Positions 21,534-41,876 of a stretch of DNA of 45,321 nt are shown here, piece by piece. The translations under genes and the position numbers were made by a program. The DNA is taken from contig CAKUJD010000012.1 of the NCBI GenBank assembly GCA_934661195.1, positions 1-45,321 of the forward strand. The letters run 5' to 3'. Numbering within the stretch: the first letter of the stretch is position 1; every line of letters starts with the position of its first letter. Under the pieces are notes generated by a model that saw only the letters and a list, made by a program, of their open reading frames with translations, made no database searches and was not told where the DNA came from. This DNA comes from an uncultured Muribaculaceae bacterium. GTDB taxonomy: Bacteria; Bacteroidota; Bacteroidia; Bacteroidales; Muribaculaceae.

Positions 21534-22736
21534 TTATTTGCCAATGGCCGATGAGCCGCTGTGCGCAATTTTGTCCAACGTCTGCCAGCATTGATACAAG
21601 CCTCTCGGCACATGGAAGCAGCCCTTCCATTTTCCGCCCTTGAGAGGCAGCAGCACCTCACCTCTGCGATTCAGATATCCGAACCATTCGGGAGCGTCTG
21701 GGTCCTTGAAATGCGTCCATGCATAGTCATGCACTTTTTCAAACCATTGCCAGCACTCTTTGCGGCCGGTGAGCTGATAGCCTTTCAGCAGTGAAATCAA
21801 CGTCTCCATATGCACCCACCACAGCTTCTGATCCCATTCCAGTTCTTGGGGAGGACAGTCCTTGCGGTCCATAAAATAGAATATGCCGCCGAATTCCTTG
21901 TCCCAACCGTAGTCAATCATATTCAATGTTATGTCGACAGCCTTGTCGATGATATCTTTTCTGCCAAGGCGCACTCCGAGATCCATGCAAAACCACATCG
22001 CCTCAATGGCGTGTCCGGGATTCATGTGGCGTCCTTCAAACGAATCGCACAGCTTATTGTCGGCAGTCACATTCTCCACCACCAAGCCAAGTTCCGGACG
22101 GTAGAACACATCAAGCACCTCATGCAGGCAAGTGTCGATAGTCTGGTTGAGATATTCCGGCTCAATCATATGCTCTATCTCCAAAGCCACGTTGCAGAGA
22201 ATCATCGGCAAAGCGAAATTCTTCATGTCGCGTGTGCCTGAATGCAACTTGTTCCACTTGCCCTTCGGGTTTTCTTTTTTCGACAGTATGATGTCGAATG
22301 TGTTGCGCGCTATGTCTTCATATTCCTTGTTGCCGGTGGCAAGCGCCAGCTGGCCAAAAGCAATTGTGGCAAACGTGTAGGAAAATATGTTGTAGGGGTC
22401 GACCAACGGGTTACCGGCCCTGTCCAACGAAAAATACCAGTTGAATTTGCCGTCGTGCCCGTGACGCTTCAAGAATTCACCGCCCCTCACCGCGCATTCA
22501 AGCCACTCATCGCGTTTCTCAAGCTTGTTGTAGAGCATTGAGAACAGCCACACCTCACGTCCCTGCATCCACACAAACTTATCTGTGTCATAGACGTTTC
22601 CATAACGGTCAAGACACGAGAAATAACCGCCACACTCTTTGTCCTGCGACTTGTCGAGCCAAAATGGCAACACATTGTCGAGCAACTCTGACTTATACAG
22701 ATTCGCAAGCGCCTCTATTTTTTTATCCATCACCAT
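21534..22736 (-). CDS. AGE-family sugar 2-epimerase (N-acylglucosamine 2-epimerase type)
   Basis: 400 residues with the (alpha/alpha)6-barrel signatures of the AGE family: KFVWMQGREVWLFSMLY near residue 60, GRHMNPGHAIEAMW (H242), KLWWVHMETLISL (H309) and GKWKGCFHVPRGLYQ (H375). H242 and H375 correspond to the catalytic pair. AGE enzymes interconvert GlcNAc and ManNAc; relatives epimerise cellobiose or mannobiose at the reducing end. The KLWW.HMET and KG..FHVPR wording looks closer to the GlcNAc type, and Bacteroides sialic-acid loci use an AGE-like ManNAc epimerase, but by eye the oligosaccharide type remains possible. No signal peptide, so it acts in the cytoplasm on sugar brought in by the MFS gene 7 bp upstream. 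ATG 22736 is chosen; ATG 22730 is equally plausible, and longer starts run into the MFS gene. Confidence 0.8.
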   Translation of the reverse strand: MVMDKKIEALANLYKSELLDNVLPFWLDKSQDKECGGYFSCLDRYGNVYDTDKFVWMQGREVWLFSMLYNKLEKRDEWLECAVRGGEFLKRHGHDGKFNWYFSLDRAGNPLVDPYNIFSYTFATIAFGQLALATGNKEYEDIARNTFDIILSKKENPKGKWNKLHSGTRDMKNFALPMILCNVALEIEHMIEPEYLNQTIDTCLHEVLDVFYRPELGLVVENVTADNKLCDSFEGRHMNPGHAIEAMWFCMDLGVRLGRKDIIDKAVDITLNMIDYGWDKEFGGIFYFMDRKDCPPQELEWDQKLWWVHMETLISLLKGYQLTGRKECWQWFEKVHDYAWTHFKDPDAPEWFGYLNRRGEVLLPLKGGKWKGCFHVPRGLYQCWQTLDKIAHSGSSAIGK

Positions 22737-22743
22737 ATATGAT

Positions 22744-24156
22744 TTAATGTTTGTTTTCTTTCTCTGTGATTCTCTCAATTTCTTCAAGACTCAGCCCTTT
22801 GGTTTCCGGAACGCATTTGTGGACAATGACGATATACGGGACACACATCACAGCAAACAGCATGAAGGTGCCAACCGGGGTGAGCCGCAAAAGCATCCAC
22901 GGTGTGAGCTGCCCAATCAGATACGTGCCTATCCACAACGAGAATCCGGCAATCGACATGGCCAGCCCTCTCACTTTCGTTGGATACATTTCCGACAGCA
23001 ACACCCACACGACGACGCATATCGAGATAGCGCAACAGAATATGTAGGCCAGGAAAAACGCCAGCAGCAGCAATGGAGACAGCCCCAGCGATGATCCAAA
23101 CGCAAAGTAGACGGATATGAGGACGAGAGACACTATCATCCCGCCAACTCCGTAATAGACAAGCTTTTTACGCCCAACCTTGTCAATTATCAGCAATGCA
23201 AGAACCGTTGTGAGCATATTGACCGAGCCAACGAGCACCTGATAAAACAGCGAGTCGCCTCCCGAGAGGCCGCTGTCGGTGAATATCGACGGGCCATAGT
23301 AGAGCACCGCATTGACGCCCATAAACTGGCCAAGAATCGCTATCGCCACTCCAACAGCGACCATCTTTCTGACACCGGGGCGTAAAAGCTCACGCCATTC
23401 CACACGTTCTTCGCTCCCAATAGCCGAGCGTATGTTTGAAAGCTCCCGCGACGCGTCCTGCTTGTTAAGGTATATCTTTCCGACAATTGCGGCTGCCTCA
23501 GCCTCACGCCGCTTAAGCACCAGCCATCTTGGCGATTCCGGAATAAAGAATATTATCACAAGGAATAGGGCAGCGGGCAGCGTCTCCATCCCAAGCATTC
23601 CGCGCCACGACTCTGTGCCAAAGACAGTTGCGACGAAGCCGCTTTGCGAAACAGCCGCCGCAGGCTCAAACCGAAGCAGCGCATAGTTGGCGATGTAAGC
23701 GCCAAGGAAGCCTACGGTTATGGCCAGCTGATACAGCGAGACCAACCGCCCTCTGTGCTCAGGCACCGACACCTCCGATATGTACAGCGGAGAGATTATC
23801 GACACCATTCCAATGCCTACGCCTCCGACAATTCTGTATGCCACCAACTCGCTGAACGACGCCGACACAGCGCATCCAGCCGCCGACACCGTGAACAACA
23901 GCGCCGACAGGATCATAGCCTTCTTGCGCCCCAGGCTGTCGCCTATCATTCCTGCCACAGCCACGCCAAAGATGCTTCCCACCAATGCACAGCCCACATA
24001 CCAGCCTTTCTGCAATGCATCGAGCGAAAACTGATGCCCGACAACATCGATGGTGCCGGAAATGACAGCCGTGTCGTAGCCAAACAGGAATCCGCCTACA
24101 GCCGCCACAACGGCAATAAACGAGACGTAGGCCATGTTTGCTTTTCCAACAATCAT
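22744..24156 (-). CDS. Sugar porter family MFS transporter
   Basis: 470 residues, twelve predicted membrane helices, inner membrane. Sugar-porter signatures are present: GGFLFGYDTAVISG in helix 1, GDSLGRKKAM, YISEVSVPEHRGRLVSLYQ, FIPESPRWLVLKRR before the central loop, DKVGRKKLVYYG, and VPETKGLSLEEIE at the C terminus. The family takes up monosaccharides such as xylose, galactose or glucose with protons. Here it likely imports a monosaccharide or short oligosaccharide freed by the periplasmic enzymes of the locus and passes it to the epimerase downstream. It lies between the DUF4434-like gene (19 bp) and the epimerase gene (7 bp) in one operon. Confidence 0.88.
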   Translation of the reverse strand: MIVGKANMAYVSFIAVVAAVGGFLFGYDTAVISGTIDVVGHQFSLDALQKGWYVGCALVGSIFGVAVAGMIGDSLGRKKAMILSALLFTVSAAGCAVSASFSELVAYRIVGGVGIGMVSIISPLYISEVSVPEHRGRLVSLYQLAITVGFLGAYIANYALLRFEPAAAVSQSGFVATVFGTESWRGMLGMETLPAALFLVIIFFIPESPRWLVLKRREAEAAAIVGKIYLNKQDASRELSNIRSAIGSEERVEWRELLRPGVRKMVAVGVAIAILGQFMGVNAVLYYGPSIFTDSGLSGGDSLFYQVLVGSVNMLTTVLALLIIDKVGRKKLVYYGVGGMIVSLVLISVYFAFGSSLGLSPLLLLAFFLAYIFCCAISICVVVWVLLSEMYPTKVRGLAMSIAGFSLWIGTYLIGQLTPWMLLRLTPVGTFMLFAVMCVPYIVIVHKCVPETKGLSLEEIERITEKENKH

Positions 24157-24175
24157 AAAATTATTCTTTTTAGTA

Positions 24176-25249
24176 TTAACGTTTATCTTCTATGCCGAAA
24201 TATTCACAATAGCGGTCAAAAAGATGGCCGGCCTGCAGATAAGCGGATTGCGGACTCATGAAATGCGAGAACTCAAAGGTTATGGCCTTGTCATACCCCG
24301 CCCGCTTCGCCGCCTCGAGCTTCATGCGCAGCTTCTCGAATTTTATCGGGAGAAATTTTATGGGCATGTCCCGGTCGAATGTTTCGGCATTCGTCCAGCA
24401 TTTTATGCCATACCGGTCGGCAAGCTTTTTGTTGACCTCGAAGAAAGCGTCGAGCTCATCGTAATCGATGTGTCCGTCCTGAAAGGCACATGCGTCAATC
24501 ACATCATGTATGCCCGCAAAAATCTCATTCCACTCCCGCTCATGCTCTTCCACCGAAACGCCGGCATCCTTCGTCAGACTTGACGACGCTGCCATCACAG
24601 CCTTCTTGCCGTCGATCCATGGGGAGATGAACGTGGGCAAGCCTCCCGACACGTCTTTGCACTGCTTGCCAAGCGTGTGGAACGCAGCCACAGCGCCCTT
24701 GGTCTTTCTCGAGATTTCGGTGCTCACATACCAGCCTCCAAAGCTTTTATGCCGGGAGCCATAGTTTTCCCACACCTCGTCAACGACAAAACGGTTGTGC
24801 TCCATTTCCATTGTCATGTCGCCGGTGTCCCAATACACGCCGGAGTCATAAAGGCCGAAATAGAACTTCATTCCATAGCGGTCCGACAGGCGCAGAAACA
24901 TGTCGAGCAAGTCGACCGACGGCCTATAGCACCCTTTACCTATAAGATAGGCTGACGGATATGTTATGAATTTGCGGTAGCCGCTACGGATCATCACCAC
25001 AGTGTCTATCCCAATCGATTTCATATAGCGGAAATCAGTGTCCCATTCCTTCTCGCCCCAGTTCTGATGAGGGATGTCGTGAGAAATCTCATCCAAGAAT
25101 GTTCCGGTTATTCTCAGCGCATTGCCACTGTGGGCAAGCGGTTCCAACCCGCCAGAGTGCCGGCTGCCGCCAGCCATGATCCGCTGTGGGACCAGCCCTG
25201 CAAGCCCCAATGCCGTCAAGCTTTTTATGAAGGTTCGTCTGTCAAGCAT
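24176..25249 (-). CDS. Tat-exported DUF4434-like putative glycoside hydrolase
   Basis: 357 residues. The N terminus has a twin-arginine signal (DRRTFIKSLTALGLAGLV, residues 3-20), so the protein is probably exported folded to the periplasm. The rest looks like a TIM barrel: ITGTFLDEISHDIPHQNWGEKEWDTDFRYMKSIGIDTVV at the start, then KFYFGLYDSGVYWD, GGWYVSTEIS (candidate catalytic E near residue 175), ACAFQDGHIDYDEL, CWTNAETFDRD (candidate E near 285) and ITFEFSHFMSPQS. This order of strands is that of DUF4434, a GH5/clan-A-like family with little biochemical work. It is first in the minus-strand PUL operon; AAGGA precedes the ATG. The catalytic assignments are inferred from motif shape. Confidence 0.65.
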   Translation of the reverse strand: MLDRRTFIKSLTALGLAGLVPQRIMAGGSRHSGGLEPLAHSGNALRITGTFLDEISHDIPHQNWGEKEWDTDFRYMKSIGIDTVVMIRSGYRKFITYPSAYLIGKGCYRPSVDLLDMFLRLSDRYGMKFYFGLYDSGVYWDTGDMTMEMEHNRFVVDEVWENYGSRHKSFGGWYVSTEISRKTKGAVAAFHTLGKQCKDVSGGLPTFISPWIDGKKAVMAASSSLTKDAGVSVEEHEREWNEIFAGIHDVIDACAFQDGHIDYDELDAFFEVNKKLADRYGIKCWTNAETFDRDMPIKFLPIKFEKLRMKLEAAKRAGYDKAITFEFSHFMSPQSAYLQAGHLFDRYCEYFGIEDKR

Positions 25250-25278
25250 TCCTTTAAATTTATTTGTTTCCGGTTTCG

Positions 25279-25309
25279 CAAAGGTAAATATTTTTATTAT
25301 ATGAGCAAA
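25279..25309 (-). promoter_or_regulatory. Bacteroidetes promoter for the DUF4434-MFS-epimerase operon
   Basis: On the minus strand: TTTG (plus-strand CAAA at 25306-25309), a 19-bp spacer, and TACCTTTG (plus-strand 25279-25286). Both boxes are exact, 30 bp from the ATG. Confidence 0.7.
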
Positions 25310-25326
25310 GCGTTACAAAAATATTT
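25286..25326. promoter_or_regulatory. Candidate ROK operator: AT-rich inverted repeat over the promoter
   Basis: AAATATTTTT at 25286-25295 and AAAAATATTT at 25317-25326 are perfect 10-bp inverted repeats separated by 21 bp. The dyad is centred at 25306, on the -33 box of the minus-strand promoter, so a bound dimer would block it. ROK repressors such as NagC and Mlc bind AT-rich dyads. AT-rich DNA makes chance matches more likely. Confidence 0.4.
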
Positions 25327-25356
25327 TATTAAGTCAGACATTTTTAATTAAAAAAA

Positions 25357-25388
25357 ATTGTTTATGCGGATTTTTCTGGTTTACTTTG
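25357..25388 (+). promoter_or_regulatory. Probable promoter for the ROK-susC-susD operon
   Basis: ATTG at 25357-25360, a 20-bp spacer and TTACTTTG at 25381-25388: each box has one mismatch to TTTG / TAnnTTTG. It lies 41 bp before the ROK ATG. It is weaker than its divergent partner, consistent with a regulated or autoregulated promoter. Confidence 0.45.
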
Positions 25389-25428
25389 CCCCAAGAAACA
25401 AAATTTGCAATTAGCTTTTTAATCAAAA

Positions 25429-26634
25429 ATGATTTCTACCTTAATAAAAGAAATAGGGAAAGGCACAAAAAGTGCAGCTTTGAAGAAGCGTGTGATATCC
25501 TTTTTTATGAAAAATGGATTTTACACGCTCCCCGACTTGGCGAAATCACTTGGGCTCAGCATTCCCACAATCACAAAGCTCGTGGAGGAATTTTCCTGCA
25601 TGGGAATCGTAAAAGAGCGTGGCAAGCTGGAGACCAACGGCGGACGCCATCCTGTGCTTTACGGGCTCAATCCCGACTCTTGCTATTTCGCCGGAGTTGA
25701 CATGAACAAAGACTCGGTGAGCATAGGCCTAATTGACTTTTGCGGCGACATGGTGGAAAAGCAAATTGGCATCGCATATAATTTCGAGAACACTCCAGCG
25801 GGGCTCGACCGCCTCTGCGACATTATAAGGGTGTTCATTTCGAATCTGAGCATCGACAAAGAGAACATTATTAAAATAAACCTAAACATTTCCGGGCGCG
25901 TCAACCCCCAATCGGGCCACAGCTACAGCCGGTTCAATTTCGAGGAGCAATCGCTTGCCGAAGTTCTGACAAGAAAAATCGGGATTTCAGCCTGCATCGA
26001 GAACGACACGAGGGCGATGACCCTGGGCGAATACACATTCGGCAACTGCTCGAATGAACAGAATGTGATATTCGTGAACGTCGGATGGGGCCTTGGCATC
26101 GGAATGATTCTTGACGGCAAAATCTACAGGGGCAAATCAGGATTTGCCGGAGAATTCGGACATATGGTGACATTCAACAATGAAGTGATGTGCCACTGCG
26201 GCAAAAAAGGCTGCCTCGAGACGGAAGCATCCGGCAGCGCGCTGCACCGCAAGCTGATAGCCAGACTCGAAGCCGGCGAAAATTCAATTCTCGCAAAGAA
26301 ATTCAGGACAGAGGGCGACGTGTCGCTCGACAAAATCATAGATGCCGTCAACCACGAAGACCTCCTATGCATTGAGCTGGTTGAGGAGGTAGGGCAAGTG
26401 CTCGGCAGGTGGATCGCCGGCCTTATCAACATTTTCAATCCTGAAAAAGTAGTGATCGGCGGCAGTTTGTCGATGACAGGAGACTACATACTGCAGCCGA
26501 TAAAGACCCTCGTCAGGCGCTACTCGCTCAACCTCGTCAACGAAGACACCAAAATCGAGCTTTCGCAGCTTGGCGACCAGGTGGGGCTGATAGGAGCCTG
26601 CGCAAATGCACGAATACGGGCGTTTGACAGTTGA
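25429..26634 (+). CDS. ROK-family transcriptional regulator (NagC/Mlc/XylR type)
   Basis: 401 residues. An N-terminal winged helix-turn-helix (about 15-70, with FYTLPDLAKSLGLSIPTITKLV) precedes a ROK domain. The ROK zinc site is complete: GEFGH (H245) and CHCGKKGCLE (C255, C257, C262). Sugar-binding positions E242, H245, E264 and N192-D193 (ENDTRA) are kept. The ATP-binding loop, DxGxT in ROK kinases, reads GVDMNKDSVSIG, so kinase activity is unlikely and a repressor role is favoured. ROK regulators usually release DNA on binding a sugar or sugar phosphate, often GlcNAc-6-P or a monosaccharide. The gene is first in the plus-strand PUL operon, 85 bp before susC with no promoter in between, and diverges from the transporter-epimerase operon; it probably controls both. 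Confidence 0.85.
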   Translation: MISTLIKEIGKGTKSAALKKRVISFFMKNGFYTLPDLAKSLGLSIPTITKLVEEFSCMGIVKERGKLETNGGRHPVLYGLNPDSCYFAGVDMNKDSVSIGLIDFCGDMVEKQIGIAYNFENTPAGLDRLCDIIRVFISNLSIDKENIIKINLNISGRVNPQSGHSYSRFNFEEQSLAEVLTRKIGISACIENDTRAMTLGEYTFGNCSNEQNVIFVNVGWGLGIGMILDGKIYRGKSGFAGEFGHMVTFNNEVMCHCGKKGCLETEASGSALHRKLIARLEAGENSILAKKFRTEGDVSLDKIIDAVNHEDLLCIELVEEVGQVLGRWIAGLINIFNPEKVVIGGSLSMTGDYILQPIKTLVRRYSLNLVNEDTKIELSQLGDQVGLIGACANARIRAFDS

Positions 26635-26719
26635 GGCGCAGCCACAGCTTCCAAACGCAGATTTACACCAACGATCCTAACAAACATATCATTATACAAA
26701 ACTAAACTACACCCAAAAA

Positions 26720-29700
26720 ATGAGACTGAATAGTTTTTTAAGTGCGTTTTTGGCCCTTGCCTTCGCCACTGCCGCCCAAACGGCTCTTGCCCAAGCATTC
26801 ACAGTGCAGGGCAAAGTTGTGGATGACAAAGGCGAGCCTATGATAGGTGTCACCATCACCGGAAAGGGAGGCAAGACACTCAATGTCACAGATTCGGAAG
26901 GCAGATACACAATCAGCCTTAGCTCTCCAACGAAGTTGAAGTTCTCTTATGTGGGCACAGAGACTGTTACTCTTGATGCCAAGAAGGGCCTCAACAAAGA
27001 CATTGTCATGCATCCGTCGGCCACAGCCCTAGAAGATGTCGTAGTCGTAGGATTCGGATCACAGAAAAAGATCAACCTCACCGGTTCCGTACAAAGCATC
27101 AGCAGCAAAGACATTCTGCGCGCCAACGTGTCGAATGGCTCGGCCGCACTTCAGGGCATTGTGCCAGGCCTTACAGCCATGCAGACATCCGGACAGCCGG
27201 GCAACGACCAGGCGTCATTGCGGCTCAGGGGCTTGGGCTCGCTCAACTCATCCACGTCGCCGCTCATCCTTATCGACGGAGTGGAAGGCGACTTCAACCG
27301 CATTGACCTCAACAACATCGAGTCGATATCCGTGCTGAAAGACGCCGCTTCTGCATCGATATATGGATCGCGCGCATCGAATGGTGTGATTCTCGTCACC
27401 ACCAAGCGCGGAGCTGAAGGCAAGCCCACCGTCACCTTCAACGGATACGTCGGGATCAACACCCCCACAACCTTGCCCGAGCCCACATCGGCAATCGAAT
27501 ATATGCAAGCCGTGGACGCAGCGCGCAAAAACGCCATGCAGCAGCCACTGTACACCGACATAATCGAAATTTACAAGAACGGAGGCGTCGACCAGACGAA
27601 CTATTACGACACCGACTGGAAAAAAGAGGTGCTTAAAAGTTCGGCCCTTGTCCAAAACTATTCAGTGGGCGTGAGCGGCGGCAGCGAGTTCTTGAAAATC
27701 TATGCTTCTGCCGGCTACTACACCCAAGACGGCCTGATCGACAACAACAAATTCTCACGCACGTCACTGAGACTCAACACCGACATGAAGGTCAACAAGT
27801 GGATGAAACTTGGCGTTGACGCAAGCGTACGCCAAGCCAACGCAAAATCGCCCGTATTGGATTCACCGACCAACATCATCGGCAAAGCCTTGACCATGAC
27901 ACCCATCATGTCGGGCATCAACGCCGACGGCACATACGGCTACGGCATCAACGGCACAAACCCGATTGCCATGGTGCGCTGCGGATGCACGTCCAACAGC
28001 GTTGCGCCTGAATACATCATTAAGACATCGCTCACCCTTACGCCTTTCAAAGGCCTCTCGGTGTTCGGCTCCTACACCTGGAAGCGCAACGACGGAGAGG
28101 TGAAGGCGTTTGCAAAGCCATACGACACCTACGAGAACGGCGTGTTCAAGGGGGCGTTCCCCACCACCGGCTCTTCAATGTCGGAGCAACGCACAAAGAC
28201 GGTGCGCAAGCAGTATGACCTCACTGGCACGTACGAGAACACATTTGGCAAAAACTACATGAAAGTGCTGCTCGGCTTCCAATCAGAGGAGCTAAACTAC
28301 AACTATCTGACTGCCGGACGAAAGAATTACTATTACGACGGTTATGAAGACCTCATCAACGGCGACGCCACGACACAGACCAATTCAAGCGCGCGCTACT
28401 CATGGGCGATGCTGTCTTATCTGTTCAGGGTGAACTACTCTTTCGACGACCGCTACCTGCTTGAAGTGAACGGACGCTACGACGGCACCTCGCGATTCAT
28501 CGGCAGCCAGCGCTGGGGCTTCTTTCCCTCAGTTTCGGCAGGCTGGAGAATCTCTCAGGAGCCGTTTTGGGAATCCGCGAGAGACGTCATGAGCAACTTC
28601 AAGCTGAGGGTGTCATACGGCACACTCGGCAACCAGTCGATCAACAGCTACTATCCCTACTCGGCTGCAATCGGAAGTTCTCCTGCCTACGGATACTGGT
28701 TTGACAAAGAATTTTCATCGGGTGTGGCACAGACCGTGCTTGCCAACCCCAACATCACTTGGGAGAAATCGCACCAGTTCGACGTCGGCATCGACTACGC
28801 CTTCCTCAGCAACAGGCTGAGCGGCAGCTTCGACTACTACGTGCGCAACATCAACAACATGCTCCAGCAGTTCCCCGTGCCATTGTTCGTATCAATGACA
28901 TCGCCGTGGGAAAACGCCGGCTCGATGAGAAACAACGGCTGGGAATTCTCAGTAACATGGCAAGACAGAATAGGCAACGTAGACTACTACATAAAGGGCA
29001 ACATCTCGGACGTCAAGAACAAGGTGACAAACCTCTATGGCAATGAATACAAGAGCAGCACACGACTGACAACGGAGGGCAAGCCCTACGGCTCCTGGTA
29101 CGGATATGTGGCTGACGGATTCTTTACCTCGCGCGAAGAAATCGAAGCGTCTCCAGTATACGGCGGCAACAAAGCCAACGTGGCTCCCGGCGACATCAAA
29201 TACAAAGACATCTCCGGCCCCGACGGTGTGCCCGACGGCAAAATCGACAGCTACGACCGCACAATAATCGGCAACCCCACTCCACGCTATGAGTTCGGAC
29301 TCACCCTCGGCCTGCAATGGAAAGGCATCGACTTCTCGGCATTCTTCCAGGGCGTAGGCAAGAAAGATGTGTACTACGCAGGTGCCGGCGCGCGCGCTTT
29401 GTGCGGCAACTACACCATCTACAAGTACCAGCTCGACTACTGGACAGAGGAGAACCAGAACGCCAAGTTCCCCCGCTTGCTTGAAGACCCGAATGCTTCA
29501 AACCCCAACAACATGATTTCATCGTTTTGGGTGAAGAGCGGAGCCTACTGCCGTCTGAAGAACTTGGTAATCGGTTATACGGTTCCTTCTGCAATAACGC
29601 GCAAAGCCCAAATCTCAAAGATTCGTGTGTATGCCAGCGTGCAAAACCTGTTTACAATCAAGAATAACTTCTACGAAGGCTTCGACCCTGAAAGCAGCAT

Positions 29701-29767: not shown

Positions 29768-29782
29768 AAAACATCAAAAGCA

Positions 29783-33595: not shown

Positions 33596-35290
33596 ATGAA
33601 ATCGATCGCATTTGTAATATTACTGTCTGCAATCCAAGCAGCCTTTGCCCGTCCAGCTACCACATGGACTGTGATGGGCAAAGAGCTGGCCGTTGACACC
33701 GTGAAGCATTGCCAACTCGGGCCGGGCACTTACGTAACGATACTTGACCTGACTGGCGACCATCGGCAACGGGTGTTTTTCACAACCACCGACCTCGGCA
33801 ACCCGCTTGTGCAGATAAAGACAATCTGCGGAAACAATGATTTAAAAACGAACCAGACTGTTCCTCAGATGGCAGGCAACAATGGAGACAAAAATTGTGA
33901 ATACTTTGCCGGCGTCAATTCCGACTTGTTTTCGGGCAACGGCCCTATCGGCACAACGATTGTAGATTCTGAAATCTACAAGACAGCCAGGACTGCAACT
34001 GGATGGTACTCCGTTGGGTGCGACAGTGAAAAGCGCCTTAGCTTCGGGCAGTTCTACCCCACATTCAAGCTGGTGTCGACCGCCACAGGACAAATGTCGG
34101 CAAAGAGCGTCAACACTCCGCGAGAGTCAAACGATTTTGTCATTTTCACCGACAAATATGGAGCAGCGACGGGCACCCCGGCCAATGGCGTAGAAGTGGC
34201 GGCCGTTTGCCTCGACAGCGGGCTGTCGGCCTACGGGACCTCGCATTACCAAGTCACGGCGGCGCCTCAATCAGGTGTCGGCAACATGCCGATTCCAGCA
34301 GGAGGAATCGTGCTGTCGGCTAACGCGTCATGGTATATGGACCCATTGAAAAAGCTGAAGGTAGGCGACACCATCAATATTACCCCCACATTCACCCTCA
34401 ATGGCAAGGCCATTGACCAACTTCAGGAAATGAGCGGCGGATGCCCGATGATTCTGCAAGACGGCAGCATCCTCAACACCGACAAAGTGCTCGACCATCT
34501 GTCTTCACGGCGCCCCCGCACCGCCTTAGGGATTGACAAGGCGGGAACCAAAATGGTTATGATGGTGGTGGACGGCGACAAGTTCAACGCCGGGATATCC
34601 GACGGCATCACATCGAAGGAGCTTGCCTGCATGATGCAGAATGCCGGTTGCCAGACGGCCATCAACTTCGATGGAGGCGGCTCGTCGACCATTTATTCCG
34701 AAACGCTTGGAGTGCTCAACCGTCCAAGCGACGGGCAACTCCGAAAAGTAAGGAACGGATGGTTTTTGGCTGCGCCGAAAACCGCTGACACAGATGTGGA
34801 GTCGATCGCATTTGCCGACTATGCAAAGACTATTGCCGCAGGCTCTGCCTATAGGCCAACAGTGTACGGATACAACAAGGACGGATACCTCATCGATGCC
34901 GACCTGGCGGGTTGCACCTTCTCATGCTCGCCCGACAGCAATGTCAGCATTGAGAACGGCACATTCACCTTCAGCCAGGCAGGCACCTACCAGATTGAGG
35001 CAAGCCACAACAGCACTACCGCCAAAATCCGCATTACAGTCACCGGCAACTCCGGCGTCAGACTCACATCGGCCGGCAACAACAGGATGAGAGTGACGGC
35101 AGAGCCAGGGGCAGGTGTGAAAATAACCATTCCCTACGATTCAAGCATACGGCTGTTCAATTGCCAGGGCGTTTGCCTGAACACTGTGAAATGCAAGGCT
35201 GGAACAATATTCATGCCCACATCAGGCTTGTCGTCCGGACTATATTTCATAGCGACTGATAAAGAAATTCGTAAATTACCTATCAAGTAA
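33596..35290 (+). CDS. Exported phosphodiester glycosidase (NAGPA family) with Ig-like and T9SS-like C terminus
   Basis: 564 residues. After a signal peptide (MKSIAFVILLSAIQAAFA) comes a phosphodiester glycosidase domain of the NAGPA / uncovering-enzyme family, about residues 35-395. Hallmarks are EYFAGVNSDLFSGNGPIGTTIVDSEI, PRTALGIDKAGTKMVMMVVDG (R308) and the signature NFDGGGSSTIY (D359). In animals NAGPA removes GlcNAc from GlcNAc-1-phospho-6-mannose; bacterial members act on sugar-1-phosphodiesters more broadly. An Ig-like domain follows at about 400-485 and the last 75 residues look like a T9SS sorting tail (LSSGLYFIATDKEIRKLPIK). It is embedded in the PUL, 4 bp after the glycosidase gene and 32 bp before the propeller gene, suggesting the target glycan carries a sugar-phosphodiester. 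Confidence 0.85.
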   Translation: MKSIAFVILLSAIQAAFARPATTWTVMGKELAVDTVKHCQLGPGTYVTILDLTGDHRQRVFFTTTDLGNPLVQIKTICGNNDLKTNQTVPQMAGNNGDKNCEYFAGVNSDLFSGNGPIGTTIVDSEIYKTARTATGWYSVGCDSEKRLSFGQFYPTFKLVSTATGQMSAKSVNTPRESNDFVIFTDKYGAATGTPANGVEVAAVCLDSGLSAYGTSHYQVTAAPQSGVGNMPIPAGGIVLSANASWYMDPLKKLKVGDTINITPTFTLNGKAIDQLQEMSGGCPMILQDGSILNTDKVLDHLSSRRPRTALGIDKAGTKMVMMVVDGDKFNAGISDGITSKELACMMQNAGCQTAINFDGGGSSTIYSETLGVLNRPSDGQLRKVRNGWFLAAPKTADTDVESIAFADYAKTIAAGSAYRPTVYGYNKDGYLIDADLAGCTFSCSPDSNVSIENGTFTFSQAGTYQIEASHNSTTAKIRITVTGNSGVRLTSAGNNRMRVTAEPGAGVKITIPYDSSIRLFNCQGVCLNTVKCKAGTIFMPTSGLSSGLYFIATDKEIRKLPIK

Positions 35291-35322
35291 CTATTTTATA
35301 ACTATTAAAAAAACAAACAACA

Positions 35323-36606
35323 ATGAAAAGAAATTTACTTTTTGGCGCAGCTTTGATTGCCAGCATGGCAGTTACCGCTCCGACAGCGACTGCGAAATCC
35401 TCGATGGATCACAATCTTAAATGCTTGTGGATGAACACCGATGTTGCTCCACTGCACACTTCGGCACGTCAGGGTGTTGCCGTCAACGGCAAATTCTACC
35501 TTCAGAACAAGGACACCCAGAAAATCGAAATCTGGAACGAGACAGGCAAAATCGGTGAGCTGGATTCCGGCAAAGGCACCAACATCACACGCGACGACGC
35601 CGGCAACATCATTGTCCGCACTGGCGAGTTCAACACCAATTACAATGTGAACAAGGGCGTGAGAATCATCTCCACGACAGGCGAAGTCAAAGATTTTGAA
35701 ATCGCCGGCATTCCCGGCGGACGTGCTGACTTTTGGGGACACGTTGCCGGCGATGTAATGTCGGACAATGGCGGCACTCTGTTTATGGGCACAATGTGGC
35801 AGCCCAACTTGATTGAAGTGCCTATTAAGAAAGGAGCTCAAGTGGTTAATGACACCTATGCCTACAACTTCGTGCAGAATGAGGCTATCAAAGTAAGCGG
35901 CACATTCACCACCACCCACACCATTTGCGCCTACATGTTCGAACCAGAGTCGATAGCACTGCTGTCGCCCAACGTAAAAACGACAAACACCACCTCAGGA
36001 AATGGAAACTCAATCTACCGCCTTACACTTGATGAAGACGGCAACTGGGTTCCAACCGGATTCTATGTGACACCTAACCACAACGGCTGCTCAGGATTTG
36101 AAATCTTCAAGCTCAACGACAAGAAATACATCGTCTATCCTTCTGGCTCGAACAATGCCGACGGCTTTACCGTAGCGTCGTTGAAAGTGAAGGACACGCC
36201 TGCCAACGAAGAGACTGACAAAGATGTGCGCATTGCAACAAAATATGCGGAAGCCAAAGAAGACGGTTCCGACGTTTTGTTCAAAAACAACGCTTTCTAT
36301 GGATGCCACTTCACAGTGGAGCCGGCTACAGAAAATTCCGTTTATATCTACGAGTACGTTCCTAACGCATACATTGCAAAATATGAGCTCACTATCGACA
36401 ACTCGGCAGTAGAAGGCGTTGAGGCAGAAGACGACGCAGTCGTTTACGGTGCCAACGGCAAAATCGTTGTGAAAGGCGAAGGCGTTGCCAATGTATATAC
36501 AGCCTCTGGCGCCCTTATTGCAACTGGCAGCGGCACAATCAACTGCGATGCAGGCCTCTATATTGTCAATGTAAATGGCAAGACGACTAAGGTTATCGTT
36601 AAATAG
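35323..36606 (+). CDS. Secreted beta-propeller-like protein with T9SS sorting tail
   Basis: 427 residues with a signal peptide (MKRNLLFGAALIASMAVTAPTATA). The main part (about 28-345) is beta-rich with blade-like repeats: ARQGVAVNGKFYLQNKDTQKIEIWNETGK, GTNITRDDAGNIIVRTGEF, NGGTLFMGTMWQPNLIEV and GCSGFEIFKLNDKKYIVYPSG. The last 75 residues form a T9SS type A sorting domain (SAVEGVEAEDDAVVYGANGKIVV ... AGLYIVNVNGKTTKVIVK). I do not recognise the family and see no catalytic motif. In a PUL such a protein is most likely a surface glycan-binding protein, a role often filled by SusE/SusF-like lipoproteins, which are absent here. A strong terminator follows, so it closes the first plus-strand transcription unit. 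Confidence 0.6.
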   Translation: MKRNLLFGAALIASMAVTAPTATAKSSMDHNLKCLWMNTDVAPLHTSARQGVAVNGKFYLQNKDTQKIEIWNETGKIGELDSGKGTNITRDDAGNIIVRTGEFNTNYNVNKGVRIISTTGEVKDFEIAGIPGGRADFWGHVAGDVMSDNGGTLFMGTMWQPNLIEVPIKKGAQVVNDTYAYNFVQNEAIKVSGTFTTTHTICAYMFEPESIALLSPNVKTTNTTSGNGNSIYRLTLDEDGNWVPTGFYVTPNHNGCSGFEIFKLNDKKYIVYPSGSNNADGFTVASLKVKDTPANEETDKDVRIATKYAEAKEDGSDVLFKNNAFYGCHFTVEPATENSVYIYEYVPNAYIAKYELTIDNSAVEGVEAEDDAVVYGANGKIVVKGEGVANVYTASGALIATGSGTINCDAGLYIVNVNGKTTKVIVK

Positions 36607-36631
36607 CACGAATATTCTATAACCGATAAAA

Positions 36632-36687: not shown

Positions 36688-36715
36688 AGTTACAACCCTA
36701 TTTTCCCCCATTGAT

Positions 36716-39700
36716 ATGACAAAACGCTTCCTTTCAGTGGCTTTATTGACAATTGCCGCATTGTGCGCCACACTGAATGCCGCAGAGCTCATCACAGAGA
36801 ACGACATCGATGCGATTGTCGCCCAAATGACCTTGGAGCAGAAGGCAAGAATTCTTGTAGGAGCTGATGGCAAAAACGACAACATAAGCCATCTTGTAGC
36901 AGGCGCCGCCGGATGGACCTATGAGATTCCGTCATTGGGCATTCCTTCCATAAATCTGGCTGACGGTCCAGTGGGTGTCAGAATAAATCCTGTGCCGTCG
37001 GAAAAAGTCTCGATTAAATATGACAGTCAGGGCATTCCCGTTGTCACATCAGCAACTTCAAGTCCTTCTGGCGGGCTGCGCACATTCTGCACATGCTTCC
37101 CCTCGACAACGGCTCTTGCCGCCACGTGGGACACAAATGCCGCCGACTGGCAAGGCCGGTGCATGGCCAATGAAGCCAAGGCATATGGCGTCGACATCGT
37201 CTTGACCCCCGGCATCAACATTATGCGTAACCCACTTTGCGGGCGCAACTTTGAATACTTCTCAGAAGACCCTCTGCTCACAGGCAAAATGGCCGCCGCC
37301 ATCATCCGAGCCATTCAAGGATGCGGCATAGGCACAAGCCTCAAGCATTTCGTGGCCAACAACCAGCAGACCGGCAAAAAATTCAATGATGCAAGAATTT
37401 CTCAGCGTGCCCTACGCGAAATCTATCTCAGGGCATTCGAGATATGCGTAAAGGAAGCCAACCCATGGACCGTGATGGGATCATACAACAAAATAGCCGG
37501 CCAATTCACCCAAACGAACAAAGACTTAATGGTGAGGCTGCTCCGCAACGAGTGGGGATACAACGGGCTGGTGCTTACCGACTGGACCGTGCGCCGACCC
37601 ACGGCCGACCTGCTAAATGCCCGCTGCGGCCTGATAATGCCCGGCGATGAGGAAATCGTGCAGGAAATCATCGATGCTGCCAACACTGGGAAAGTTTCGG
37701 CCGAGGCCATCGACGCCTGCGTGAAAGACGTGCTCCGCGTTGTGGCGAAATCCATAACAGCCAAGGGGTGGCACTTCACCACTCCTGCGCTTGCCGACAA
37801 TGCGGCGGCATCAAGAAAGATCGCATCAGAATCGATGGTGCTTCTGAAGAACGACAACAATACGCTGCCCTTGAAAGCCGGTTCAAAAATCGCGCTGTTC
37901 GGAGCCACCGCATATAAGTCGATAGCTGGCGGCACAGGCTCGTCGAACGTCAACAAGCCATACGTCATCGACATTTCCACCGGTCTTGAGAACGCCGGCT
38001 TCACCATAGGCAGCAGAGTGGCTGAAATCTACCGCAAATACAATGATTTCCGTACCGTCCTCGATGACAAATTTCCCGACTGCCCGGATTGGCAGAAGAT
38101 TTCATACCACCGCACTGTGTCTCCGGAAATGGACATCACAGGTCACGAGGCCCTCGTGGCTGAAGAAATCGGCAACAGCGACATTGCTGTCGTTGTCATC
38201 GGGCGCGGCTCAGGCGAGACTTCCGACAGAACTGTTGAAAACGACTTCAACCTCACTGCCGAAGAAACGGCTCTGATTAGCAAAGTGGGTGCCGAATGCC
38301 GCAAACAGGGCAAAAAAATGGTTGTCGTCCTCAACGTGTGCGGAGTGGTCGAGACCGAATCCTGGAAATGGAATGCCGATGGCATACTCATGGCTTGGTT
38401 CCCAGGTCAGGAATGCGGCAACGCCGTTGCCGATGTGATTTCAGGCAAAGTGAATCCCTCCGGAAGACTGCCAATGACGTTCCCGCTGAAGTATGCCGAC
38501 ATTCCTTCGGCAAACAACTATCCATACGTTGGCCAGACCGCGGGACGCAACTTTGACTACACTGACTACGAGGAAGACATCTGGGTGGGCTACCGCTACT
38601 TCTCCACATCGCACCGCCGTGTGTCGTTTCCTTTCGGCTATGGCCTGAGCTACACGAATTTCGCCTACTCCAAGCCCGCGGTAAAAAAGGCCGGTGACAA
38701 ATGGACGGTGAGCGTGAATGTGAAAAACACAGGAAGCGTTGCCGGCCGCGAAGTAGTTCAGCTCTACGTAAAGTCGAACCAAGCAACCGACTCCATCACC
38801 AGGCCGGAAGCTGAACTCAAAGCATTTGCAAAGACAAGGCTGCTTGCGCCAGGAGAAAGCGAAACCGTGAAGCTGTGGTTCAGCGCAAGAGACATCGCCA
38901 CGTTTGACGAGCAGTCATCCGCCTGGCTGACAGACAAGGGAACATACACAGTGCAATTGCGTAATTCAGCCGATCCTGCCTCGAAGCTAAGCTCTTCGCA
39001 GTTCAAAGTAGGCAAGACCCTCGAATGGAAAGTTGAAAACATTCTTGCTCCGATAAAGCCTGTAAAAGTAATGAAATGCGACACCATTCAGGAATACCCC
39101 AAAAACGGTATCCGCGACTTGGCTTTGATCTATCAAGGCGGAGCAAAGCGAATCGACTGGACCGCCAATCAGTTTCTGCCCTACGTGACCCACAAATTCT
39201 CCGACGGGCACAGAGACTGGCTATTCGACGGGTTTCTGTTTCTTGACTTCAACGATGGCATGGGACACACCTTCATTCCTCAATATGGCGCGAAAAACGC
39301 CCGCAAGCAGGAATGGGAATGGTATCTCGACCGCCTGTTTGAAAAAGGCAAGTCGCTCGACGCCCTTGACAAATGCATCGGTCAGCAGATCGACTCAATC
39401 GGCGCCCCCGGATTCAAGCATAAAGTGGTGCTGACCATTCCGACCCCTATCGCCGGACAGACTGATTGGGGCAAACTCGGCAACCGCACGCTGATTTTCG
39501 ACAACTACGGAGACCGTTCAGCTGCCGCCATATGGTTTATCGACGAATTGGTGGAGCGTTTCGCCAAAGCCGGATACAAACATCTGGAATTGTCGGGCCT
39601 CTATTGGGTGGACGAAGACATCTGCCACACAAAAGACCTGGTGAAGCACATTGCGCCTGCCGTGCACGCCAAGGGACTTGAATTCATCTGGATTCCATAT

Positions 39701-40090
39701 TACAGGGCAAGAGGCTACGACCGCTGGAAAGAGCTGGGATTTGACATTGCATACTACCAGCCCAACCATTTCTTCGACAAGAAAATTCCCGACTCCCGCC
39801 TCGACGACGCCTGCAATGAGGCTCTTAGCCTTGGAATGGCTATGGAATTTGAGTGCGATTCGAAAGCCCTTTACGGCTCAAAGGATTCATCGTATGGCCG
39901 CATGCAGGCCTACATCAGCGCATTCCGCCGTCACCACGTCTTTGCCACATCGGCCATTGCCTACTACACCGGCAGCCGTGGGCTGATAGACATGGCAGCC
40001 AACCCCAACGCCAAGAACCAGACAATAATGGACGAATTGGCTAAAATAATCGTCGACAGGCGGCACAACAGCAAGTTGACAATTAAATGA
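36716..40090 (+). CDS. Exported GH3 glycosidase fused to a DUF4855 domain
   Basis: 1124 residues with a signal peptide (MTKRFLSVALLTIAALCATLNA). The GH3 part spans about 25-780: an N-terminal barrel with SLKHFVANNQQTGK and GLVLTDWT (nucleophile D289), an alpha/beta domain with IGRGSGETSDRT (probable acid/base E501), and a fibronectin-III-like domain (VKNTGSVAGREVVQLYV). This E..DR arrangement is that of beta-glucosidase-type GH3 enzymes. From about 790 to 1110 there is a DUF4855 domain (DLALIYQGG, WLFDGFLFLDF, LSGLYWVDED with E967, GLEFIWIPYYRARGYDRW, DIAYYQPNHFF), probably a second TIM-barrel hydrolase. Stand-alone GH3 enzymes of this layout are about 750-850 residues, so the extra 330 residues are a true fusion. 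The reading frame is continuous. It heads a sub-operon with 4-bp overlaps. Confidence 0.8.
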   Translation: MTKRFLSVALLTIAALCATLNAAELITENDIDAIVAQMTLEQKARILVGADGKNDNISHLVAGAAGWTYEIPSLGIPSINLADGPVGVRINPVPSEKVSIKYDSQGIPVVTSATSSPSGGLRTFCTCFPSTTALAATWDTNAADWQGRCMANEAKAYGVDIVLTPGINIMRNPLCGRNFEYFSEDPLLTGKMAAAIIRAIQGCGIGTSLKHFVANNQQTGKKFNDARISQRALREIYLRAFEICVKEANPWTVMGSYNKIAGQFTQTNKDLMVRLLRNEWGYNGLVLTDWTVRRPTADLLNARCGLIMPGDEEIVQEIIDAANTGKVSAEAIDACVKDVLRVVAKSITAKGWHFTTPALADNAAASRKIASESMVLLKNDNNTLPLKAGSKIALFGATAYKSIAGGTGSSNVNKPYVIDISTGLENAGFTIGSRVAEIYRKYNDFRTVLDDKFPDCPDWQKISYHRTVSPEMDITGHEALVAEEIGNSDIAVVVIGRGSGETSDRTVENDFNLTAEETALISKVGAECRKQGKKMVVVLNVCGVVETESWKWNADGILMAWFPGQECGNAVADVISGKVNPSGRLPMTFPLKYADIPSANNYPYVGQTAGRNFDYTDYEEDIWVGYRYFSTSHRRVSFPFGYGLSYTNFAYSKPAVKKAGDKWTVSVNVKNTGSVAGREVVQLYVKSNQATDSITRPEAELKAFAKTRLLAPGESETVKLWFSARDIATFDEQSSAWLTDKGTYTVQLRNSADPASKLSSSQFKVGKTLEWKVENILAPIKPVKVMKCDTIQEYPKNGIRDLALIYQGGAKRIDWTANQFLPYVTHKFSDGHRDWLFDGFLFLDFNDGMGHTFIPQYGAKNARKQEWEWYLDRLFEKGKSLDALDKCIGQQIDSIGAPGFKHKVVLTIPTPIAGQTDWGKLGNRTLIFDNYGDRSAAAIWFIDELVERFAKAGYKHLELSGLYWVDEDICHTKDLVKHIAPAVHAKGLEFIWIPYYRARGYDRWKELGFDIAYYQPNHFFDKKIPDSRLDDACNEALSLGMAMEFECDSKALYGSKDSSYGRMQAYISAFRRHHVFATSAIAYYTGSRGLIDMAANPNAKNQTIMDELAKIIVDRRHNSKLTIK

Positions 40091-41082
40091 TGCAAGTCAC
40101 GAATATTATGTTTAAAGCATTGAAATCGGCGCTCCATATTTTAGTTTTGTCGTCGGTATTTATTTTCCCCGCCAAAGCCACAATGCACGTGGCTTTGAGC
40201 GGGGAACTGCTTCATATCAAGTCGCAGTTGGAGGGGCCGCACACTATCAGTTATGAGTTCAGCCGATGCATGGCCAACCATCTGTACACATTCAGCCGTG
40301 TGCTTGTCGACACCACCATAGTCAATGAGGCAACGAGCGACAATATAGGGCCGTTTTTAATCGACGGAGCTGGATGGACCGGAGGCAATCACCTGCTTGC
40401 CAACGGATTGCCATCGGCTTATACCGACAGCGTTTTCATATATGTTGACGGCCGCCGAATAGTGAACGACTTCTCGGGTGAAGCGCAATGCGTGACGGTG
40501 TGCGTGTGCAACACACTGCTGAATCCGTCTGATTCAAGCCAAAAATTCTGTACGGAATCCGTCACCTACTCAATTTGCGGCAACAGCATCCAAGTGTCGG
40601 CCACCCACCACTACCTCAACCGCCAGCCTCTGACGGTTGCCCGCTATTATGGGATGCAGTCGATGATGATTGGAGAGACAGAAATTCTGACCCCGGGAGG
40701 TGAATACTCCAAATGGACTCCAGTGGACAGTGTCGACAGGTTCACCCGTAAATCGGCTCCACACTTTCATCAATTCATCGAGAAATCGAATGTTTGCTAT
40801 GCCGCAGCGTTTTTGACCGACGCCGGACTGGGCGACCATCACCTCATAGGCGACGATGATGTGGTATTTATCGGCAACTCATGGAGCAAGTCGTACCACA
40901 AGCTCATCGGCAATTCCATTGTCAAAGGCGGAGAGACCACACATTGGGAAGGAATATACACTTGGTTCCTAAACCCGCTCATCTCCGATCCGGATTATTT
41001 TTCGTATATTGGCCACTTCAATGGCAAGCAGGCCATTTTCTTCCACAACAAATTGAACGATCTTATCACTCCATTAGAATGA
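40087..41082 (+). CDS. Unrecognised secreted protein of the PUL
   Basis: 331 residues. I do not recognise the family. The signal peptide appears to start at MFKALKSALHILVLSSVFIFPAKA, so translation may begin at 40108; ATG 40087 overlaps the GH3 stop by four bases (ATGA), which argues for coupling from 40087. The mature part is beta-rich with conserved-looking phrases: DNIGPFLIDGAGWTGGNHLL near residue 85, SATHHYLNRQPLTVARYYGMQSMM, GLGDHHLIGDDDVVFIGNSWSKSYHKLI and HWEGIYTWFLNP. Clustered His, Asp and Trp residues suggest a sugar-binding or catalytic cleft of a jelly-roll or mutarotase-like fold, but this is only an impression. It lies between the GH3-DUF4855 gene and the EEP gene, overlapping both by four bases, so it is made with them. 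Confidence 0.7.
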   Translation: MMQVTNIMFKALKSALHILVLSSVFIFPAKATMHVALSGELLHIKSQLEGPHTISYEFSRCMANHLYTFSRVLVDTTIVNEATSDNIGPFLIDGAGWTGGNHLLANGLPSAYTDSVFIYVDGRRIVNDFSGEAQCVTVCVCNTLLNPSDSSQKFCTESVTYSICGNSIQVSATHHYLNRQPLTVARYYGMQSMMIGETEILTPGGEYSKWTPVDSVDRFTRKSAPHFHQFIEKSNVCYAAAFLTDAGLGDHHLIGDDDVVFIGNSWSKSYHKLIGNSIVKGGETTHWEGIYTWFLNPLISDPDYFSYIGHFNGKQAIFFHNKLNDLITPLE

Positions 41083-41876
41083 AAACTATTAAGAATTTAT
41101 TGCTATTAAGCCTTTTGCTTCTGTCGGCAGCCAGCTTTAAAGCCAACGCCGCCGATAAGGAGTTGGTGGTGATGACCTACAACATCCGCGCTGGCAGCCT
41201 GACGTCGATCGACTCTCTTGCGGATTTCATCAACAGCCACCACCCCGACTTTGTGGCGCTGCAGGAGGTGGACGTCATGACCAAACGCGCCAATGCAAAA
41301 AAAATGAATGGAATCAACATCGTGTCGGCACTGGCTGCAAGGACCAACATGTTCGGCTATTTTGGCAAGGCGCTCAATTTTGCCGGCGGCTATTACGGCA
41401 TTGCGATTCTGTCGCGACACCCGTGCAAAAAGATGGAATGCTTCCAGCTTCCAAATCCCAAGCAAACGGAGCAACGGGTGCTTTTATTAGGAAAATTTGA
41501 AATCGACGGGAAACGGGAAATGGCTTTTGCCTGCACGCATCTTGACGTAAAAAGCGCCGAGACAAGAGGCTTGCAGGCCGATTTCATCATCAACAAAATC
41601 AAAGGCGTGTCCCTACCCACTATAATCGGAGGCGATTTCAACGCCTATCCAGAGGAATTGTGCTCTCTGAAATTCCATGCTGCAATGACCGACATTTCAG
41701 GATGCGAGCCTACATTTCCTGCCTGGAGTCCGGACAGAAAGATTGACTACCTGTTTGTCTACGCTCCTTCGCCGTCATTTAAGCCCCATTTCAGCACAAC
41801 CACCCTGCCCGACCAGTTGTCGGATCACAGGGCTATTGTCGCGAAGCTAAAGCTAAGCGACCTTTTACAGCCTTAG
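41079..41876 (+). CDS. Exported endonuclease/exonuclease/phosphatase (EEP) family phosphoesterase
   Basis: 265 residues. A signal peptide (MKTIKNLLLLSLLLLSAASFKANA) precedes an intact EEP domain: MTYNIR (N35), LQEVD (E63), THLDVKS (H154), IIGGDFNAYP (D186, N188), KIDYLFV (D223) and SDHRAI (D249, H250). These are all the metal-binding and catalytic residues of the DNase I / sphingomyelinase / inositol-phosphatase superfamily. Being exported and in a PUL, it more likely cleaves a phosphoester or phosphodiester on the glycan or a lipid headgroup than nucleic acid, but the family alone does not decide. ATG 41079 overlaps the preceding stop by four bases. The gene ends the PUL; no clear plus-strand terminator follows. 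Confidence 0.85.
   Translation: MKTIKNLLLLSLLLLSAASFKANAADKELVVMTYNIRAGSLTSIDSLADFINSHHPDFVALQEVDVMTKRANAKKMNGINIVSALAARTNMFGYFGKALNFAGGYYGIAILSRHPCKKMECFQLPNPKQTEQRVLLLGKFEIDGKREMAFACTHLDVKSAETRGLQADFIINKIKGVSLPTIIGGDFNAYPEELCSLKFHAAMTDISGCEPTFPAWSPDRKIDYLFVYAPSPSFKPHFSTTTLPDQLSDHRAIVAKLKLSDLLQP

Follow-up and report, generated by a model that had tools for sequence, protein, structure and literature searches.

The stretch of DNA considered here (the window) comprises the 45,321 nucleotides of contig CAKUJD010000012.1 from an uncultured Muribaculaceae bacterium, and at 21534-41876 it carries a polysaccharide utilization locus (PUL) laid out as two divergent gene runs with an intergenic gap of 179 bases between them (Table 1). 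The minus-strand run encodes a DUF4434 protein, a sugar-porter MFS transporter and an N-acylglucosamine 2-epimerase (AGE). The plus-strand run encodes a ROK regulator, SusC, SusD, a DUF6259 protein, a member of the NAGPA phosphodiester glycosidase family, an unrecognised secreted protein (UNK1), a fusion of GH3, Fn3-like and DUF4855 domains, a second unrecognised secreted protein (UNK2) and a protein of the endonuclease/exonuclease/phosphatase family (EEP). The gaps from ROK to EEP are, in order, 85, 15, 17, 4, 32, 109, −4 and −4 bases, and these genes therefore likely form one operon read as a single transcript. The last value is a four-base overlap of UNK2 and EEP; the EEP start at 41079 has a signal-peptide-like sequence of its own, and the open reading frame (ORF) start at 40881 falls inside UNK2. 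By eye, signal-peptide-like starts are present on all plus-strand products after ROK, among which SusD is the only lipoprotein-like one. SusC, SusD, GH3 and ROK thus stand together in one run that is kept in relatives, as a PUL gene set should.

Table 1. Features of the PUL in the window, with the Pfam families assigned.
Feature	Coordinates	Strand	Families and remarks
AGE, N-acylglucosamine 2-epimerase	21534..22730	-	PF07221; ATG at 22730 likely, ORF open to TTG at 22787
Sugar-porter MFS transporter	22744..24156	-	PF00083
DUF4434 protein, twin-arginine-like signal	24176..25249	-	PF14488
Divergent intergenic region, 179 bases	25250..25428	.	no operator in common with relatives found
ROK regulator with helix-turn-helix (HTH)	25429..26634	+	PF00480, PF13412
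SusC-like TonB-dependent transporter	26720..29767	+	PF00593, PF07715, PF13715
SusD-like surface lipoprotein	29783..31540	+	PF07980
DUF6259 protein, exported	31558..33591	+	PF19773; start approximate
NAGPA phosphodiester glycosidase family protein	33596..35290	+	PF09992
UNK1, unrecognised secreted protein	35323..36606	+	no Pfam match above cut-off; C-terminal sorting-like tail (by eye)
GH3+Fn3-like+DUF4855 fusion	36716..40090	+	PF00933, PF01915, PF14310, PF16147; DUF4855 from about 39101
UNK2, unrecognised secreted protein	40087..41082	+	family fused to EEP or DUF4855 elsewhere
EEP family protein, exported	41079..41876	+	PF03372

Families in the window were called with Pfam profiles at their own cut-offs for 20 proteins, encoded from about 11 kb onwards. 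The original prediction had named SusC/SusD, NAGPA, EEP, DUF4434, DUF6259, DUF4855, AGE, the porter and ROK, and all are present above their cut-offs at coordinates that match the ORFs. Four details required revision: the DUF4855 protein does carry that domain, but it is a single 1124-amino-acid fusion whose N- and C-terminal GH3 parts had gone unnamed, the one unrecognised secreted protein is in fact two, as neither UNK1 nor UNK2 has a Pfam match above cut-off, EEP begins at 41079, and DUF6259 at about 31558. The scores are 362.8 bits for the transporter (Sugar_tr, cut-off 22.3), 273.4 for DUF4434 (cut-off 30; its TAT_signal match of 16.1 bits lies under the cut-off of 22.7), 164.6 for SusD (cut-off 23.1) and 347.5 for DUF6259 (cut-off 28.7). 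The fusion scores 125.7 on PF00933, 162.3 on PF01915, 67.8 on PF14310 and 368.4 on PF16147 (DUF4855, cut-off 27). ROK qualifies as a regulator of its family with 183.8 bits (cut-off 22.9) and an HTH domain at 22.6 bits (cut-off 21.9). AGE reaches 272.5 bits on GlcNAc_2-epim (cut-off 23.4), with 2gz6 and 6f04 as its closest solved chains, and 709.2 bits on the NCBIfam equivalog NF052547, above the cut-off of 600, which points to N-acetylmannosamine (ManNAc) or N-acetylglucosamine (GlcNAc) as the sugar to be expected inside the cell.

NAGPA scores 99.1 bits (cut-off 25), and its motifs RPRT, DG and DGGGS are invariant across 20 aligned rows and are held in common with the solved chain 3ohg (53.6 bits); this chain and 5h3k, its solved matches, both come from bacteria and span part of the NAGPA protein. 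Membership of the family is thus given by profile and motifs, and hydrolysis of sugar-1-phosphodiesters is the predicted activity. EEP scores 62.7 bits on the longer ORF (cut-off 24.5), and the motifs expected of the family are present: residues N35, E63, H154, D186, N188 and D223 are invariant in nine rows, of which that of L008 ends before the SDH motif (loci are designated here by L numbers and genomes by G numbers). The GDPD proteins added in relatives, described below, retain HRG, E-x-D and the downstream H. No solved relative of DUF4855 was found; for DUF6259 the search of solved chains gave only antibody chains (E 0.02 and worse), and for UNK2 a single chain (E 0.27), all taken as chance. 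The DUF6259 protein may be glycosidase-like, judging from conserved acids in its alignment. C-terminal sorting-like tails occur on NAGPA and UNK1 (window 33596-36606) and on a beta-helix protein of another locus (L145, 8117-9685), with PF18962 under its cut-off, and nine of ten type-A genomes (defined below) carry SprA_N of the type IX secretion system, G041 being the one without.

The original prediction had proposed that the gene order be looked for in related genomes, where it does recur. One genome per species (84,980 species) was scanned with a NAGPA alignment, and the best 80 of 439 confirmed stretches were kept. This gave 79 loci, and in 12 of these (L001-L011 and L031) SusC, SusD, DUF6259 and NAGPA are adjacent. 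As these 12 were found with the NAGPA query, the presence of NAGPA there is by construction, but the same order was also recovered with DUF4855 or DUF6259 as the query, and the arrangement is more than chance. Where the contig continues, UNK1, GH3, DUF4855 and UNK2 mostly come next; L005 is without GH3, and L001, L002, L006, L011 and L031 end at the edge of the contig or of the fetched stretch, L006 still carrying the start of a GH3+DUF4855 fusion that resembles that of the window. UNK1 is kept in these loci, with multiple weak (25-28%) copies in L010 and L011. Some of the relatives also encode a GDSL esterase, which in L003 scores 211.7 bits on PF14606, and a GDPD protein, which there scores 71.2 bits on PF03009. 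The carriers include Bacteroides salyersiae, B. nordii, Massilibacteroides, Muribaculaceae, Prevotellaceae and Porphyromonadaceae, and identity to the window is 56-72% for SusC and 48-80% for SusD. The DUF6259 profile at E <= 1e-100 matches 5 of 393 genomes of the order, among which G409 has no labelled SusC in its fetched stretch, and of 119 genomes sampled within the B. salyersiae genus, 12 have DUF4855. The window locus thus belongs to a PUL family that is conserved but rare, designated type A. For the relatives, a greedy longest-ORF script supplied the gene calls; it missed the SusD of L010, which lies beneath an antisense ORF, and may have missed other genes, and many neighbours were named by similarity to a reference set or by eye rather than by Pfam. 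In L008 (B. nordii), NAGPA and UNK1 are each broken into two ORFs (9977-11697 and 11740-13013), by decay or sequencing error. Downstream of the type-A PUL of G003 lie GH27-type (Melibiase_2) and GH36 genes (L117, 2637-6387), a hint of alpha-galactosyl or related residues in the substrate of that lineage.

The divergent left-hand genes belong to the PUL together with ROK, because in two relatives DUF4434-MFS-AGE runs directly into SusC/SusD. In G041 (L128, L120) the order DUF4434-MFS-AGE-SusC-SusD-DUF6259-GH3-GDSL-DUF4855-UNK2 is found in one run with ROK divergent, and in G476 (L136, L137) one run reads ROK-DUF4434-MFS-AGE-SusC-SusD-DUF6259-UNK1-NAGPA-GH3-[DUF4855+GDSL+GDPD]-UNK2. MFS and AGE also lie directly upstream of SusC in L031, and in B. 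salyersiae and B. nordii (L110, L112) DUF4434-MFS and an EEP come just before an ECF-sigma gene and the PUL. In G003 (L115) and G005 (L114), DUF4434-MFS and ROK are elsewhere in the genome, with AGE in G003. DUF4434 matches of at least 73% identity occur in 40 of the 119 genomes of the B. salyersiae genus, namely in all 12 that have DUF4855 versus 28 of the 107 others (Fisher p 6e-7). A link to ROK, originally proposed to control the PUL, is seen in part of the family: the gene adjoins the PUL and is co-directional with it in the window, G497 (L139) and G476 (L137), and is divergent in G041 (L128), but ECF-sigma/FecR-type genes precede SusC in six loci (L003, L004, L005, L007, L008 and G093; called by Pfam for L003 and by similarity or eye for the rest). 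The regulator linked to the type-A PUL thus differs between lineages, being ROK in some and of the ECF/FecR type in others.

Gene fusions tie several of the products together. Among the 120 best listed of 1076 homologues, 68 are DUF4855+GDPD fusions, and among the 120 best listed of 237 UNK2 matches, 25 are fused to an EEP (PF03372), many of these matches falling into near-identical clusters. Further fusions are GH3+GDSL and GDPD+EEP in L117, UNK2+DUF4855 in L118, DUF4855+GDSL+GDPD in L136, and a GDPD+EEP in G497 (L149) that is unlinked to the type-A locus. UNK2, DUF4855, GH3, GDSL, GDPD and EEP are therefore connected by fusion, and NAGPA, UNK1 and DUF6259 by position only.

How constant the phosphodiester families are could be judged from seven loci reached via DUF4855 (G001, G002, G093, G041) or DUF6259 (G475, G476, G497 and G001 again), all sampled around G001, which had itself been found with NAGPA. 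NAGPA occurs in five of the seven, and EEP or GDPD in four (G001, G002, G093 and G476, not G475, G041 or G497). The loci of G041 and G497 hold the core PUL without NAGPA, EEP or GDPD, and G041 has no NAGPA match genome-wide. With two of the seven loci devoid of all three families, the families are not constant across type A, and the phosphodiester set recurs as an accessory, though one that is probably physically integrated in the PUL. An EEP or GDPD of the type-A family (at least 100 bits) was found within the fetched stretch in 5 of the 12 type-A scan loci versus none of 30 other NAGPA loci (p 9e-4), the latter being L012-L041 without L031, plus L078; these are shorter (median 17.3 kb versus 21.6 kb, five being under 8 kb), and 37 loci, L042-L077 and L079, stand unscored outside the comparison. 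The original prediction had combined glycosidases and phosphodiester-cleaving enzymes in a PUL for a phosphodiester-containing glycan. That these enzymes are part of the PUL family is borne out by the added GDPD and the fusions, and the EEP motifs and the EEP neighbours described next also speak for the original reading. In view of G041 and G497, however, a phosphodiester glycan as the defining feature of the PUL is not supported in the form originally given.

EEP genes are also found in other PULs of the same genomes. Ten genomes were searched for EEP, and six of them (L145, L146, L147, L148, L151, L152) show a second PUL that joins SusC-SusD to two or three tandem EEPs. In five of the six, GH89 and then the start of a glycerate-kinase-like gene follow, both Pfam-checked in L145, and L151 ends before them; this GH89 is about 30% identical to that of L119, a related locus discussed below. 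A GntP-type transporter comes next in L146 (Pfam) and L145 (by eye), and an alkaline phosphatase is present in L152. A third PUL, seen in B. salyersiae (L144) and in the same order in B. nordii (L153), contains one EEP confirmed by Pfam, another EEP-like gene, an MFS transporter of the organophosphate-antiporter class (PgtP/GlpT; in L144 the best NCBIfam match is the PgtP subfamily, 241 bits, under the cut-off of 407.75), the ManNAc-6-phosphate epimerase NanE (243.4 bits, cut-off 189) and a phosphohexomutase. As genes that consume phosphate esters stand beside the EEPs, true phosphodiester chemistry is favoured.

SusC/SusD systems serve the uptake of soluble oligosaccharides or glycoconjugates. 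Given the gene content, the conservation of the set, the fusions, the intact motifs and a core that occurs without the phosphodiester genes, there is about an even chance that type A is a ROK-linked PUL for an N-acetylhexosamine-containing glycan with an accessory set for phosphodiester removal. Import of a soluble oligosaccharide or glycoconjugate would fall to SusC/SusD, and cleavage of glycosidic bonds to the exported DUF6259, GH3-DUF4855 and DUF4434 proteins. NAGPA would split sugar-1-phosphodiesters, and EEP, coupled to UNK2, would cut a second phosphodiester. Relatives would use GDPD, or EEP and GDPD, for this step, and their added GDSL esterase would remove acyl groups. The released N-acetylhexosamine would enter via the sugar porter, AGE would interconvert ManNAc and GlcNAc, and binding of the sugar by ROK would free the promoters.

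Several observations weigh against this account. In G497 the GDPD+EEP fusion persists away from the type-A locus and another PUL has a different NAGPA-family gene, and in G041 GDPD- and EEP-like genes are likewise present but unlinked, which argues against a simple story of loss and limits the word "dispensable" to the locus. In B. salyersiae and B. nordii the PUL has no AGE next to it, and the sugar product may therefore differ there. An inverted-repeat scan of 15 upstream regions revealed no ROK operator in common, and no phosphatase for the phosphate monoester that NAGPA would leave was recognised in the window PUL. Finally, the L003 GDPD, whose first solved relative is 3no3 (192 bits), has as its second the chains 7wwc/7ww4 (144 bits), deposited as a beta-1,3(4)-glucanase. 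As a separate observation, upstream of SusC L010 and L011 each show two perfect inverted repeats in succession that are alike in sequence and may be a terminator, an attenuator or an operator.

The resemblance of GDPD to a glucanase leads to an alternative, considered unlikely, in which the NAGPA, EEP and GDPD folds were repurposed as glycosidases or binding proteins and the substrate has no phosphate. It is in keeping with the glucanase match, the frequent fusion of DUF4855 to GDPD, the core PULs of G041 and G497, and a related GDPD (L121, 12658-14133) fused to a 3-keto-disaccharide hydrolase (PF06439, 163.5 bits), a gene that lies beside AGE-MFS-DUF4434 and an FAD-dependent oxidoreductase. 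Against it stand the intact catalytic motifs of EEP and GDPD and the phosphate-ester genes that adjoin EEPs in other PULs, and the matched domain of 7wwc need not be the active one.

Wall teichoic acid is attached through a linkage unit of ManNAc-GlcNAc-1-phosphate, and GlpQ belongs to the GDPD family. A sharpened form of the original prediction would have type A act on a phosphodiester polymer of bacterial walls, of the teichoic-acid type, a proposal regarded as improbable. NAGPA would cut the GlcNAc-1-phosphate links and GDPD or EEP those of glycerol phosphate, with GDSL removing D-alanyl or acetyl esters, GH3 the side sugars, and AGE handling ManNAc. Every enzyme would have a matching bond, AGE is present, relatives have GDSL and GDPD, and the fusions fit, as does the naming of GlpQ and PhoD as teichoic-acid phosphoesterases in the excerpted text of PMC11488536. 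The two of seven loci reached independently of NAGPA that lack all three phosphodiester families speak against it, and a literature search on teichoic acid PULs gave only an unrelated review.

Very improbable is the scavenging of host or plant glycolipid headgroups, or headgroups of the glycosylphosphatidylinositol type (glucosamine or GlcNAc, inositol or glycerol phosphate, and acyl groups). Related loci do pair DUF4855 with GH89 in five of six cases, some having DUF5009 and calcineurin-like phosphoesterases, and the EEP of L009 scores 36.8 bits on PF23226, the PGAP2IP C-terminal domain (cut-off 27), where the window EEP stays below with 16.9 bits. However, GH89 was not seen in type-A loci themselves, no inositol-handling or alpha-mannosidase family was reported among the window proteins scanned, and SusC/SusD usually take soluble glycans. 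A yeast alpha-mannan PUL as known from Bacteroides, similar in its SusC/SusD and suggested by the phosphate-bearing mannan that the original prediction gave as an example, is set aside because the alpha-mannosidase and mannanase families that mark such PULs (GH92, GH76, GH125, GH38) were not reported in the 20 window proteins or in the relatives' proteins scanned. A sialic-acid operon, brought to mind by AGE and a porter together, was rejected, as no lyase or sialidase was reported among the window proteins scanned.

For the preferred reading of an N-acetylhexosamine glycan PUL with a phosphodiester-removal accessory, the mannan and teichoic-acid-like polymers originally named as targets are thus conjectural, and the substrate may be teichoic-acid-like, phosphoglycerate-bearing, a glycolipid or unphosphorylated. 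More broadly, and only tentatively, gut Bacteroidales may possess an undescribed modular toolkit of three PUL modules for phosphodiester-bearing aminosugar glycans. The first module may be the type-A PULs with NAGPA, EEP, GDPD and GDSL, in which DUF4434, DUF4855 and DUF6259 would represent new families of glycosidases and UNK2 would partner EEP. The second may be the PUL of tandem EEPs, GH89, glycerate kinase and GntP-type transporter, and the third the PUL of EEPs, organophosphate-antiporter-class MFS and NanE; both of these sit in genomes that carry type A. The glycans consumed may be teichoic-acid-like or bear phosphoglycerate, and may come from neighbours or the host. If the phosphodiester reading is true, type A provides an entry point to PULs that consume phosphate-bridged glycans and a shared pathway for five uncharacterised families (DUF4434, DUF4855, DUF6259, UNK1 and UNK2). 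Direct testing is possible, as type A occurs in B. salyersiae and B. nordii, both named species in culture.

The PUL has further neighbours in the window. Beside it on the minus strand (13524-20038) lie genes for a TonB-receptor-like outer-membrane protein (16844-20038), a PF01663 type I phosphodiesterase (15470-16801) and a PKD/CBM protein (13524-15269), so that another phosphodiesterase-family gene accompanies an outer-membrane receptor. After EEP, also on the minus strand, come a beta-barrel-like outer-membrane protein without a Pfam match (42075-43439) and a lipoprotein-like GDPD (43511-45205; PF03009, 65.9 bits), the latter of a different subfamily from the PUL GDPD of the relatives (19% identity).

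SusC/SusD loci with phosphodiesterases are already known in principle. Excerpts of PMC6499787, on 576 loci without CAZymes, and of PMC8115612, on the phosphate utilisation loci of Flavobacterium, describe such loci. As far as these excerpts go, the window is similar in having SusC/SusD with exported phosphodiesterase-family proteins, but those loci have PF00149/PF01663 proteins without known CAZymes, or serve phosphate scavenging, whereas the window joins glycosidase families, NAGPA, an epimerase and a sugar porter. Human NAGPA, the mannose-6-phosphate uncovering enzyme (UCE), takes GlcNAc off GlcNAc-phosphate-mannose diesters, as stated in an excerpt of PMC12024695. It and bacterial DUF2233 proteins share the Pfam family of the window NAGPA, with motifs in common with 3ohg, but the solved matches of the window protein are those bacterial chains of partial coverage. 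Literature searches gave no paper joining "phosphodiester glycosidase" with "Bacteroides", and among the papers listed for phosphodiester PULs, ROK and teichoic acid none dealt with the type-A locus or its gene combination; one paper among those that mention DUF4855, DUF4434, DUF6259 or DUF2233 names BT0442.

The closest described system is in B. thetaiotaomicron, where BT0438-BT0454 comprises GH89, SusC/SusD, DUF4855, DUF5009, a GHL10-type protein, a calcineurin-like phosphoesterase and a sugar porter, according to the excerpted text of PMC10434189. It resembles the window in having DUF4855 and a sugar-porter MFS with SusC/SusD, but loci of this type carry GH89, which was not seen in type A, and their SusC/SusD are about 26-33% identical to those of the window, compared with the higher values within type A. 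Six such DUF4855 loci (L119 and L121-L125) were found, with GH89 in five and with GDSL-type esterases, and their additional genes include AGE and GDPD fusions (both in L119 and L121), NAGPA-family genes (L124, L125), DUF5009 (L119, L122) and calcineurin-like proteins (L119, L121). A related B. thetaiotaomicron locus is reported to be induced in vivo by a substrate yet to be named, and an answer for type A would bear on it as well.

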